In this document: positions 1-4,183 of the stretch, piece by piece | How positions within the stretch are numbered: position 1 is the first letter of the stretch | How the letters are laid out: each line of letters begins with the position of its first letter | NCBI GenBank assembly: GCA_026708055.1 | Contig: JAPOVS010000073.1 | Span: 1 to 37,475 of the forward strand | Reading direction: 5' to 3' | Length of the DNA: 37,475 bases | Source: a bacterium | Lineage (GTDB): Bacteria; Actinomycetota; Acidimicrobiia; Acidimicrobiales; CATQHL01 | Made by a program: the position numbers and the translations under genes | Notes under the pieces: model-generated | Seen by the model: the letters and a program-made list of their open reading frames with translations, nothing else | The model's database searches: none | What the model was told of the DNA's origin: nothing

Positions 1-856
1 CGTTCTCGCCGCTGAATCCGTGGATGACCGTCAAAGTGGGGAGGTCGCTGGGGCCGGCCGGGGGCGGCGGCGGCGGGGGTTCGGGCGGCGGCGGCGGTGG
101 CGGTTCGGGCGGTGGCGGTGGTGGCGGCTCGGGCGGCGGCGGCGGTGGCTCGGGCGGCGGCGGCGGTGGCTCGGACGGCGGTGGCGGCGGGGGCTCGGGC
201 AGCGGCGGAACGGCGGCAGCCTCCTCGCGAGCTTGCCGCGCCGCCTCCGCGGCCTCGGCGGCGACCTGCGCGGCCTCTTCCGCTGCCGCTTGGGCCTCGG
301 CCAAGGCCGCCTCGGCGGCCGCGAGGGCGGCTGCTTCATCGCCGGTGTCGGCCTCCGCCTGCTCGGCAGCGGCCTGCGCGGCCTCGGCTGAGTCTTCTGT
401 CGACGACGGTTCAGGTGCGGGCGCCGATGGCGGGGGTTCGGGTGCGGGCGCCGGTGGCGGGGGTTCGGGTGCGGGCGCCGGTGGCGGGGGTTCGGGTGCG
501 GGCGCCGGTGGCGGGGGTTCGGGTGCGGGCGCCGGTGGCGGGGGTTCGGGTGCGGGCGCCGGTGGCGGGGGTTCGGGTGCGGGCGCCGGTGGTGCGGGTT
601 CGGGTGCGGGCGCCGGGGGTTCCGGCGGCAGGGGCGCCGGCTGCTTGTCCGCCGGTGCCGGTGGAGGAGCCGCGGCGCTCTCGATGGCTGGCGGCGCCGC
701 TGTGGGTGCCGGCGCGGCGGCCTCGGCGGTCGGAGCGGGGGGCGGGGTGCTGACCTGCGCTGGCTCGGTGCCGCTGCAGGCCGCGGCGACCATAGCCGCC
801 AGCGCCACCATCACCACGGCGTGCAGCCCGAGCGCCACGGGAGGATGCCTGTTCAC
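1..856 (-). CDS. Thioredoxin-like lipoprotein with proline-rich linker, partial (C-terminus off the left edge)
   Basis: The frame opens with GTG at 856 and stays open to base 1. The N-terminus has a hydrophobic stretch ending in AAMVAAACSG, a lipoprotein signal with the lipidated Cys near residue 27. A very long low-complexity linker follows: nine-residue PEPPPPAPA units, an Ala/Glu-rich probably helical segment, then PPPPPPE units. The last visible residues, DLPTLTVIHGFSGEN, match the start of the redoxin domain of the next gene upstream (NDLPAVTVVDVVSGES), so the missing part is probably a paralogous thioredoxin fold outside the membrane. It is the last gene of the minus-strand sigma factor cluster, 87 bp after its paralogue. 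An in-frame GTG at 889 is an alternative start; neither has a convincing ribosome site. The redox motif itself is not in view. Confidence 0.7.
   Translation of the reverse strand, partial: MNRHPPVALGLHAVVMVALAAMVAAACSGTEPAQVSTPPPAPTAEAAAPAPTAAPPAIESAAAPPPAPADKQPAPLPPEPPAPAPEPAPPAPAPEPPPPAPAPEPPPPAPAPEPPPPAPAPEPPPPAPAPEPPPPAPAPEPPPSAPAPEPSSTEDSAEAAQAAAEQAEADTGDEAAALAAAEAALAEAQAAAEEAAQVAAEAAEAARQAREEAAAVPPLPEPPPPPPSEPPPPPPEPPPPPPEPPPPPPPEPPPPPPPEPPPPPPPAGPSDLPTLTVIHGFSGEN
60..205 (-). repeat. 21-24 bp tandem repeats encoding PPPPPPE-type units
   Basis: About six imperfect direct repeats of a GGC-rich unit ending in TCG. Read on the minus strand they encode runs of proline separated by one Glu or Ser. 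They sit just before the predicted redoxin domain of the partial lipoprotein and act as a stiff spacer. Confidence 0.7.
408..623 (-). repeat. 27-bp tandem repeat, 8 units, encoding PEPPPPAPA
   Basis: Eight consecutive 27-bp units, the inner ones identical and the outer ones with one or a few changes. They stay in frame on the minus strand and encode the nonapeptide PEPPPPAPA. The near-identity of the central units suggests recent expansion by slippage, so copy number may vary between strains. There are no spacers, so this is not a CRISPR array. Confidence 0.85.
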
Positions 857-943
857 CCTTGCGGTTCGGGTTGCGCCGTGGTCCTTCACAGGTGACGGCA
901 CTCTACCGAGGTGGCGCCTGGGATCGTCCGCGGCCGCGGTCCT

Positions 944-1540
944 TCATAGGGACGCGGCCCTGGCGAGCACGTCGGCCGTGTCGATCCCACCGAGGCCCCC
1001 CTCGACGTACTCGCCGTCGGGGGAGAACAGCGCCCACGCCGGCTGGGTGGCGACGCCGAGCTGAATCCACGAGTCGAAGGACTCGTCCCAGAGCATCGGG
1101 AACGCCGACACTCCCGTGTTCTCCACGAAGGTCTGCGCCAGATCCAGGTCGTCCTGCGTTCCCAGGCCGATGACCATGATCTCGTCTCCGTGATCTCGAG
1201 CGAACTGCTCGACGCCGGGTGCCTCCCGGGCGCAGATCGGTCAATGCGGCGCCCAGAACCACGCCAGGATCGGCCGGTCGGCGGGCGCCAGTGAGGACAG
1301 CACGAAGCTCTCGCCGCTGACGACGTCTACGACCGTGACCGCGGGAAGATCGTTGGCCGGATCCCGGGGGGCCGGTGCAGGCGCCGGGTCGGCGGGAGGA
1401 GCAGCCGGCGGGGTGCTGACCTGTGACGGTTCGCTGTCGGCGCAGGCTGCCGCCGTGACCGTCGCGGCGGCCAGGGCGACGGCGAGAAGCCGGGTCATGC
1501 GGGAGGAAACAGACCGGCGGGCGAGGCGGTTCTCGTTCAC
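944..1540 (-). CDS. Redoxin/TlpA-like lipoprotein, candidate selenoprotein (in-frame UGA in a UxxC motif)
   Basis: Predicted 198 residues if UGA at 1243-1241 is read as selenocysteine. Residues 15-33 form a lipoprotein signal (lipid Cys33), followed by a Pro/Ala linker. The thioredoxin-fold domain starts near residue 60 (NDLPAVTVVD). The active site reads FWAPH-U-PICAREAP. TlpA-type proteins normally have WCxxC here, so U100 replaces the first catalytic Cys and C103 is the resolving Cys. A cis-proline motif, TQPAW (P167), follows as expected for the fold. The 98 codons after UGA keep the same frame, typical codon use and a normal domain end. A hairpin starts 8 nt after the UGA. The GTG start at 1540 was chosen; ATG at 1498 gives a shorter signal peptide. 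The gene lies 49 bp after the GerMN protein of the sigma cluster and likely reduces or detoxifies thiols or peroxides outside the membrane. The alternative is a nonsense mutation, giving a pseudogene. Confidence 0.72.
1212..1243 (-). promoter_or_regulatory. Candidate bacterial SECIS hairpin directly after the UGA codon
   Basis: After the UGA (1243-1241) and a 7-nt gap, the minus strand reads GCGCC (1233-1229), a bulged C, GGG, loop AGGCA (1224-1220), CCC, GGCGT (1216-1212). The lower stem has five pairs including one G-U and the upper stem has three. The apical loop contains GG and begins 17 nt after the UGA. Known bacterial SECIS elements have a short loop with conserved G a similar distance from UGA. 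High GC makes chance hairpins common, so this is supporting evidence only. Confidence 0.5.
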
Positions 1541-1589: not shown

Positions 1590-3389
1590 CTACGGCTGGA
1601 TCCAGATGGCCTCGACAGCGGCGACCCGGGGCCCGTCGGGCGACAGGAAGTCGAAGATGGCGCTGATCTGCGCCCGTGGCGGAGTCGGCTGCTCGTCGGT
1701 GTCGTCGGTCTCCTCGGGCGGGGTTGGAAGCGCGGGAGGCAGGTCGGACCCCTCGCCCGTACCGGCCTGCGTCGTCGTCGTGGTCGTGGTGGGGATCGGC
1801 GGGGGCAGGACCGAACTCTGGACCGCCGAGCGGTAGATCGAGACGTACGCCAGCGAGGCGAAGTCGCCGTGCGGTTCGCCGAGTGGTCCGGGCGTGTTCA
1901 CCGTGACGGTGGCGCCGTCGCCGCTGCCGTCGATCCACAGCAGGTCGGCCAGCGAGGACGTCGCAGAACCGTCGCGTGGCGACGTCGTGTCCACCGGTAT
2001 GGACCACCAGTCGCTGACGGACGCCGCGGCGGTCGACACGACGGTGAGATCGCCGACGTCGGCACCCCATCGCAGCACGAGGCCCGCTGGCAGGAGGGCG
2101 GACGATTCGAGCCCGGGGCCGGTCGTGAGCCGGCGCGCCAGGTTCTCCATCGCGGCACGCGTCGTGCTGTCGATCGAGAGTGGTTGCGCCACGATCGTCC
2201 GGGTCGACACCCAGCCCGTGCTGCCGGCGGCGGTGACGACCTCGGCCCAGGCGTCGCTGCCGCTGCCGGAGCGGCCGGCGGTGAGGCGGGTGCCGTCTCC
2301 CAGGACGCCCAGTTCCTCGGCGTCGTCGTCGGGCCCGGCGCGGATCACCGCGCTCACGTCGCCGATCGTGTGGGCGGTCACCTCGCTGGTCCGGCTGGTG
2401 TAACCGGCGCCGTCCCGGATGTGGATCCGGCAGGAGCTGCCGGCGAGGGCGCCGAAGGCGGCGCAGTCGCCGTCGAGGCGGTACTCGGCGACGTCGAAGT
2501 CGCTGAACTGGAACACGGTGGCGTTGAGTTGCGTGAGGAATTGCTCGGCCGTGATGTCGTCGTCGCCGCCGAACGCGTCGGCAAGGCCGGCCGGGAGATC
2601 GATCGTCAACCACCGGTTGCTCGTCATGGTCGTCACCGCCGTGGCGTTGTCGCCGCTGAGCCCCCGGAACCCGGCGCTGCTGTCGGCCTCGTTGGGGCCG
2701 CCGAGCAGGATCCCCAGCGCGGTCGGAAGGTTGTTGGCGGCGGCGGCCCGTTGACGCGGCGCCGCGTCGCTCTCACCGCAGGCGAAGTACACGGTTACCA
2801 ACTCCGATGTGGCGTCGCTGCCGTCGCTCCCGGGCTGCTCCAGGCACGCCGGTGTCTCGGTGGCCGGCGCCTCGGCGGCGACGGCCTCGCCGTCGTCGGG
2901 AGTTGTGTCCGTCGCCGGCGCGGGATCGGCCGGAGGTGCCGGCGTGACCGGTGGGGGCGGTGTCGGCGGCGTCGGCGGCGTCGGCGGCGTCGGCGCAGGA
3001 GTGGTGGTGATCCGCCCGGAGTCGCTCGCCTGCGGATCGGCCTCGGCAACCGCCGGGGGAGCGGGAGTCGGGGGCTGGGGGGTCGGCGGCGGCTCGGCTA
3101 CCGTCGGTGCCACCGCGGCCGGATCGGCGGTGCCGGCCACCGGCGCGGTCTCGGTCTGAATCGGCGATGTTGCGCTGGGTCCCGTCACGGAAACCGAGAT
3201 GACGACGGCGATCGCCGCGCAGGCCGCAGCCGCCAGGACCAGGGCCGGCCGCAGGCGAACTTCGGGCACTCGCAGCACCCGTGGCCGGCGACCCGCTCGA
3301 CGCTGGATCTCGAAGAGGGCGCCGGGCGACACCTCGACGCCTTCCGCCCGCTGTGCGAAAGCGTCTCGGAGGCGTTCCTCGATGCTCAC
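1590..3389 (-). CDS. Membrane-anchored GerMN/SH3-like protein, putative anti-sigma partner
   Basis: 599 residues. Residues 1-46 are a basic cytoplasmic head (MSIEERLRDAFAQRAEGVEV...), of the kind found in proteins encoded after SigE-type sigma factors. One membrane segment covers residues 48-68. A Pro/Ala/Thr linker follows to about 190. About 195-325 resembles a GerMN domain (VTVYFACG, ALGILLGGPNEAD, LTIDLPAG). About 335-400 resembles an SH3b domain (AVIRAGPDDDAEELGVLGDG, GWVSTRTI). The rest is a less clear beta-rich region ending IFDFLSPDGPRVAAVEAIWIQP. Its ATG overlaps the sigma factor stop by 4 bp (ATGA), so the two are translationally coupled. I infer that the head binds or sequesters the sigma factor while the outer domains sense an envelope signal. 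No zinc-binding HxxxCxxC motif is visible. Confidence 0.8.
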   Translation of the reverse strand: MSIEERLRDAFAQRAEGVEVSPGALFEIQRRAGRRPRVLRVPEVRLRPALVLAAAACAAIAVVISVSVTGPSATSPIQTETAPVAGTADPAAVAPTVAEPPPTPQPPTPAPPAVAEADPQASDSGRITTTPAPTPPTPPTPPTPPPPVTPAPPADPAPATDTTPDDGEAVAAEAPATETPACLEQPGSDGSDATSELVTVYFACGESDAAPRQRAAAANNLPTALGILLGGPNEADSSAGFRGLSGDNATAVTTMTSNRWLTIDLPAGLADAFGGDDDITAEQFLTQLNATVFQFSDFDVAEYRLDGDCAAFGALAGSSCRIHIRDGAGYTSRTSEVTAHTIGDVSAVIRAGPDDDAEELGVLGDGTRLTAGRSGSGSDAWAEVVTAAGSTGWVSTRTIVAQPLSIDSTTRAAMENLARRLTTGPGLESSALLPAGLVLRWGADVGDLTVVSTAAASVSDWWSIPVDTTSPRDGSATSSLADLLWIDGSGDGATVTVNTPGPLGEPHGDFASLAYVSIYRSAVQSSVLPPPIPTTTTTTTQAGTGEGSDLPPALPTPPEETDDTDEQPTPPRAQISAIFDFLSPDGPRVAAVEAIWIQP

Positions 3390-3937
3390 GACGGCTCCTC
3401 CGCCGTGTCCTCTTCGGGCGGCGTCAGTTTCCGCTCCAGGGTTGCCAGACCGCGGCTGGCGTGCGTCTTGACCGATCCCGGGGAGATGCCGAGCGTCTCG
3501 GCGATCTCGGCCTCGCTGAGATCCAGGTAGTACCGCAGGGTCAGCACCTCCGACTGCCGTCGCGGCAGGCTGCGAACGGCGTCGATCAGGGCATCGCTCT
3601 GCAGCTGCTCGAGCGCGCCGGCCTCGGCGCTCTCGGCGGGGGGCGCCGCCTCGGGTACGACGCGCCGGCGCACCATGCGCCTGCGCATACGCGAGCGTGC
3701 CCCGTTCATGACCATGCTGCGCAGGTAGGCGGCCTCCTTGCCCTCCTCGGGGCGAGTGGTGAGGGTGTGCATCTTCACGAAGGCGTCCTGCACGACTTCC
3801 TCGCAGCTCCCCACATCATCGAGGAGCAGGGAGGCGAGGCGAACGAGATCCTTGTAATGGTCGGCGAACAGCCGGACCAGAAGGTCATCTTGGGTCTCGC
3901 TTCCTCGTGGGCCGCCTCGCCGCTGTGGGGCGCTCAT
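3386..3937 (-). CDS. ECF RNA polymerase sigma factor, SigE-like family
   Basis: 183 residues. Region 2 covers about 20-90 (LFADHYKDLVRLASLLLDD, EEVVQDAFVKMHT, YLRSMVMNGARSRMRRR). Region 4 covers about 125-175 (LPRRQSEVLTLRYYLDLSEAEIAETLGISPGSVKTHASRGLATL) and contains a clear helix-turn-helix. The size and the two-domain layout without region 3 are those of ECF sigma factors; the region 2 wording is that of the actinobacterial SigE-like group. It is the first gene of a minus-strand cluster followed by the membrane GerMN protein and two thioredoxin-like lipoproteins, so an envelope or redox stress response is a reasonable inference. The 246 bp upstream hold no feature I could assign. Confidence 0.9.
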   Translation of the reverse strand: MSAPQRRGGPRGSETQDDLLVRLFADHYKDLVRLASLLLDDVGSCEEVVQDAFVKMHTLTTRPEEGKEAAYLRSMVMNGARSRMRRRMVRRRVVPEAAPPAESAEAGALEQLQSDALIDAVRSLPRRQSEVLTLRYYLDLSEAEIAETLGISPGSVKTHASRGLATLERKLTPPEEDTAEEPS

Positions 3938-4183
3938 GGCTGCAGGCTCATGACTCGGTGCAGGTTCGTTTCAACCTACGCAGGTACAGACGCCCGAAGT
4001 CCTGCGCGCGTTGACAGCGCCGGCGAAGAGATTCCCCGAGTTCATAGTGATCGCCGACAACCTAACCAGCAGGATCGCCGAACGGCGGCACGGGTGACGC
4101 CGGAGCCGCTGCGGGGCGGCCGCCGGACAGGGGCTCGGGCGGCCCGGCGGTTATGCGCCGCGCGCCGGTCGCGCCGGAGGCTG

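Follow-up and report, generated by a model that had tools for sequence, protein, structure and literature searches.

A predicted exported UxxC selenoprotein of the thioredoxin fold in Acidimicrobiales, with a candidate SECIS hairpin inside its coding region

The locus and its interrupted reading frame

The window, by which we mean the whole stretch of 37,475 nucleotides analysed, is contig C73 of a 3.9-Mb assembly that is 96.4% complete (hereafter the own genome). On its minus strand, positions 944 to 1540 hold a frame of 198 codons interrupted by a single TGA at 1243-1241. The features of the locus are as follows.

944..1540, minus strand: predicted selenoprotein gene for an exported DsbF/TlpA-like UxxC thioredoxin-fold lipoprotein, 198 residues long and holding a single internal UGA; the start is GTG at 1540 (ATG at 1498 is a possible alternative), stop TGA at 946-944
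1442..1540, minus strand: putative signal peptide with a lipobox-like AAAC, identified by eye; residue 33 is the candidate lipid-anchor Cys
947..1351, minus strand: thioredoxin-fold domain (predicted pLDDT 97.6; Pfam)
1241..1243, minus strand: in-frame UGA, predicted from homologous-codon counts to be selenocysteine, the N-terminal redox residue of W-A-P-H-U-P-I-C
1213..1231, minus strand: hairpin 1, GC-rich, just after the UGA, of the type CCGGG-AGGCA-CCCGG; auxiliary at most
1196..1212, minus strand: hairpin 2, candidate SECIS, UCGAGC-AGUUC-GCUCGA, with a 6-bp stem and a 5-nt loop at 1206-1202
2..901, minus strand: tandem paralogue cut by the contig end, of which the N-terminal part is present: a signal peptide, a linker of P/E/A repeats and the domain start PSDLPTLTVIHGFSGEN
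1590..3389, minus strand: exported SH3-domain protein, conserved upstream neighbour
3386..3937, minus strand: ECF sigma factor of the SigE family, also a conserved neighbour on the upstream side

The TGA falls on the first residue of the active site (...FWAPH-TGA-PICAREAP...), and beyond it the frame continues for 98 clean codons that include the cis-Pro motif TQPAW. A first-pass annotation had described a UGA in place of the first catalytic cysteine with this run of codons and this motif behind it, and the description was borne out when the frame was reread. The same annotation expected standard gene calling to split or truncate the gene, and two pieces were obtained, 1540-1241 (99 aa) and 1177-944 (77 aa). 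Its further claim that UGA is a normal stop elsewhere, with no reassignment of the code, agrees with the mechanical list of long frames in the window, in which leuS, folP and dnaJ end in TGA.

The arrangement of the sigma factor and the SH3-domain protein upstream of the gene is kept in three other genomes; PADLOC gave no match. The truncated tandem paralogue ends inside P/E/A-coding repeats of 24-27 nt, and its orthologue in another genome (G008) is intact and also contains a UGA. Contig C21 of the own genome begins inside a similar UGA-containing gene (L019), and two further relatives (L028 and L029) likewise sit at contig ends, for which reason we suspect that short-read assemblies may break at such repeats. 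Where the gene half on C21 overlaps the cut paralogue the two differ (GPNDLPTLTVIDVFSGEN vs GPSDLPTLTVIHGFSGEN), and this half may therefore be another copy rather than the missing end of the paralogue.

Conservation of the UGA codon and co-occurrence with selenocysteine machinery

Homologues were found in 8 of 9 genomes in a survey of the family, with exactly one TGA at 17 places, and in alignment the TGA occupies the same codon in relatives that range from close orthologues to same-genus paralogues only about 32% identical. A survey of the order gave a match in 140 of 298 genomes, at least 86 of which, among the places listed, carry the TGA form, several of them in two to five copies; tandem UGA pairs are common. 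Most of the homologous sequences come from metagenome-assembled genomes. At the 92 homologous places extracted the codon is TGA in 78 and TGC or TGT in the other 14, with no other codon observed, and on these counts the in-frame TGA is not a chance event. When 84,980 species genomes were scanned, the order was identified as Acidimicrobiales (class Acidimicrobiia, Actinomycetota) and the homologous codon was TGA in 98 cases and Cys in 2, a ratio that is skewed towards carriers of the hairpin because the query peptide overlaps it. TGA forms also occur in other Actinomycetota. The first-pass annotation had proposed aligning homologues to see which codon stands here, and the alignment gave a single conserved TGA or a Cys codon, free of random stops and frameshifts.

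We regard it as extremely improbable that the gene is decayed or mis-sequenced, with the UGA either an error or a stop that truly ends translation early, and with the C-terminal half unused or made separately from ATG 1177. Such an origin would account for the two separate frames reported by gene callers, and two homologues do have extra stops: in L080 (G213:C79) a TAG replaces the conserved Gln codon near the hairpin loop although the stem is kept, which may reflect recent decay or an error, and in L188 (about 4109-4123) the frame meets another TGA four codons further on (U-P-T-C-TGA-R) while its hairpin is intact, which may be a double Sec, a mutation or an error. However, the same single TGA is found in more than 80 species with the frame never lost, purifying selection acts on the region after it (dN/dS about 0.22 in comparison with the two nearest orthologues), the full domain is predicted to be well folded, and the hairpin described below is conserved in the TGA forms only.

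Two variations on the gene were also seen. Within the genus, another subfamily with UGA (L044, L035, L036, L037 and L040) has WSPY/H/L-U-G/L-x-C in frames of about 310-370 codons and probably a different N-terminal architecture, and one UGA homologue (L131, JABDMN010000004.1) extends for 251 codons beyond the UGA, which suggests a C-terminal fusion.

The machinery for selenocysteine, which the first-pass annotation had named as the thing to look for, is present in the own genome. A tRNA-Sec scores 64.3 bits, above the Rfam cut-off and in agreement with ARAGORN, and selA and selB lie close together and close to this tRNA on contig C26. A selD gene was also found; it carries an in-frame TGA and is itself a UGA-containing selenoprotein gene (L068, G000:C40:60240-61175), with a hairpin (GCGCAG-GUC-CUGCGC) at a distance from the UGA similar to that in the TlpA-like genes.

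Across the order, selA was detected in 179 of 298 genomes. It was found in 85 of the 86 listed genomes with UGA forms and in 1 of the 9 with Cys forms only (the other 8 lacking it), in statistics that, like those on codon bias below, ignore shared ancestry. The lone UGA genome without a selA match (G174) is 83% complete. One genome, G027, combines a strong selA match with Cys forms only (L052 and L073), and its f20 relatives are without selA; an intermediate state or a different use of selA is possible. Six switches between UGA and Cys states are needed on the tree, where Cys forms appear at several places, some nested within UGA forms, a placement that would fit Cys having taken the place of Sec more than once as the machinery was lost.

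Sequence alone does not reveal the inserted residue, and the UGA might be read as another residue, as Trp or Cys or by near-cognate suppression. This is highly improbable, as Cys occupies the codon in all 14 non-UGA homologues extracted, UGA forms track selA in a setting where UGA is otherwise a normal stop, and a SECIS-type hairpin lies at the right distance. Decoding as selenocysteine, the first-pass proposal, is well supported by the machinery, the homologues and this covarying hairpin.

A candidate SECIS element within the coding region

Two hairpins follow the UGA. Hairpin 1 (+12 to +30) was our first choice as the SECIS and was dropped: 60.5% of its cells are paired, covariation is seen in 4 of 8 pairs, and it lies outside the consensus fold. 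Hairpin 2 is preferred because of this weak pairing and because shuffled versions of the region fold just as well. As this last result was obtained with the window sequence alone, the RNA evidence rests on the comparative data for hairpin 2. A search of the region against Rfam gave no meaningful match.

Hairpin 2 has a spacing of 34 nt from UGA to loop and a minimum free energy of -8.0 kcal/mol, and its loop, stem, spacing and energy all agree with the bSECIS rules given in PMC13188914. Over 64 distinct sequences, pairing holds in 97.9% of its cells, whereas slid versions reach 13-47%; two-sided (compensatory) changes occur in 3 of 6 pairs, loop bases G39, U40 and U41 (alignment numbering) are invariant, and hairpin 2 is the sole structure in the consensus fold. 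It is missing from 14 of 14 Cys homologues. A covariance model of the region, run on the own genome, clearly matched the two UGA genes only (E 2e-16 and 6e-15), with the next match at E 0.003; weaker matches (L198, L199 and L200) were judged on examination to be due to chance.

The codons within hairpin 2 are unusual for these genes. GCT serves as Ala codon 14 in 123 of 131 distinct sequences but makes up 11% further downstream in these genes; for CGA at Arg codon 15 the figures are 92 of 116 and 15%. Where the Arg codon has become CAA (Gln), the stem partner has mostly changed from C to T. By these comparisons hairpin 2 overrides codon preference, forcing rare codons, and offers a clear case of an RNA element dictating both codons and amino acids within a coding region.

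Predicted function and relation to known selenoproteins

The protein has a thioredoxin fold with a motif of the WAPxCxxC type, in which U stands for the first C, and a cis-Pro, P167, that is invariant. Both Pfam AhpC-TSA and Redoxin exceed their cut-offs, AhpC-TSA being the best Pfam match. The solved structures nearest to the predicted domain are Mycobacterium tuberculosis DsbF, Escherichia coli CcmG, ResA and MPT53, and a sequence search also gave DsbF as the best match (E 2.9e-16). The first-pass label "TlpA-like" holds for the fold group; among solved relatives, though, DsbF and DsbE/MPT53 stand closer than TlpA proper. Against the NCBIfam DsbE model (TIGR00385) the window protein scores 26 bits, under the cut-off of 123, and all 26 family members compared are weakly similar to it. 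A linker rich in P and A, recognised by eye, follows the putative lipid-anchor Cys 33.

Gene integrity, conservation of the recoding codon, the machinery, the RNA element and the fold were all computed here. Taken with these, it is very probable that the gene encodes an exported UxxC selenoprotein in which the UGA is read as selenocysteine, an extracytoplasmic thiol-selenol oxidoreductase that belongs to the DsbF/DsbE/ResA/TlpA group and is probably anchored by a lipid. We infer SelB-dependent insertion of Sec, export, lipidation and a thiol-selenol exchange at the UxxC site in which Sec attacks, in the following model. SelA would make Sec-tRNA-Sec with selenophosphate from SelD, and SelB would bind the hairpin, which lies 34 nt past the UGA, and deliver this tRNA to that codon; the UGA would consequently be read as selenocysteine and the whole domain made. 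After export the active site would be Sec-x-x-Cys (HUPIC), in which a solvent-exposed N-terminal Sec may attack or receive disulfides of substrate proteins and the Cys may resolve the mixed selenenylsulfide.

An alternative is that the product is a selenoprotein with another job, namely peroxide or metalloid reduction or the maturation of haem or copper proteins, rather than general protein disulfide exchange. The fold is common to peroxiredoxins and CcmG, and the best Pfam match noted above would fit such a role. We consider it unlikely, though by a lesser degree than the readings rejected above, since disulfide exchange is what the UxxC motif indicates, as do DsbF and DsbE/MPT53, the closest relatives. 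In the own genome a Cys homologue on contig C87 adjoins a DsbD_TM gene, and because of this adjacency the role in cytochrome maturation is probably held by that pair.

We suggest tentatively, and with less than even confidence, that this uncatalogued, order-wide, often multi-copy exported selenoprotein family serves Acidimicrobiales as a dedicated extracytoplasmic redox system based on Sec, with a lineage-specific SECIS (loop AGUU) that shapes the VEQFAR segment and, in the lineage of the window, a link to a SigE-type sigma factor. With at least 86 of the 298 sampled genomes carrying the family, several in two to five copies, this order, widespread in water and soil, seems to make more use of selenium than the catalogues show. 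Annotation probably splits or truncates the members, as no curated NCBI selenoprotein model matches the family well. The named strain Ilumatobacter nonamiensis YM16-303, with its two UGA copies and its tRNA-Sec, makes a bench test possible.

The claim of the first-pass annotation that this is a candidate new selenoprotein needs narrowing: it stands for a new subfamily and not for the class, as UxxC selenoproteins with TlpA-like folds have already been catalogued (PMC13188914, PMC9312934 and PMC2398784). The entries in the available text of PMC13188914 include a thiol-disulfide isomerase-like protein (cd02966), a Prx-like thiol:disulfide oxidoreductase (PF00578) and a Redoxin family (PF08534). 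These share the fold class and the UxxC motif with our protein, in agreement with its Pfam matches to AhpC-TSA and Redoxin; actinobacterial members are not explicitly named in that portion of the source. Literature searches on selenoproteins with TlpA and actinobacteria, Ilumatobacter or Acidimicrobi found no paper describing the family, and NCBIfam selenoprotein models gave no convincing match to the 26 members. The subfamily is set apart by models and descriptions rather than by the sequences of representatives, and overlap with, for example, the Redoxin entry is possible.

Individual known systems resemble the family in part. The HUIPC motif thioredoxin-like selenoprotein NF047660, as described in the available text of PMC13188914, has a similar motif, H-U-x-x-C; its model gave no match to the window protein at E <= 1, and the 25 families listed as matching the 26 members at that threshold do not include it. 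NF041054, a ResA-like WAxxUGC protein, is a TlpA-like selenoprotein with WAxxU, but has UGC where our family has UPxC; 6 of the 26 members match it weakly (best E 1.5e-7), one of them scoring 21 bits against a cut-off of 300. The M. tuberculosis proteins DsbF and DsbE/MPT53 (3ios, 1lu4) are exported actinobacterial thioredoxin-fold oxidoreductases, as is predicted for the window protein, and DsbF matches its predicted structure with Z 19.3 and an rmsd of 1.9 over 128 residues; they have WCPTC or WCPFC, whereas the window protein has UGA/Sec for the first Cys, H before it and a P/A-rich lipoprotein-like linker. Finally, the bacterial SECIS of the E. coli fdhF type, in the general model outlined in the available text of PMC13188914, is like hairpin 2 a small hairpin past the UGA with a loop that starts G-U, whereas the loop here is AGUUN, lies 34 nt downstream and is preceded by a separate, less conserved hairpin.
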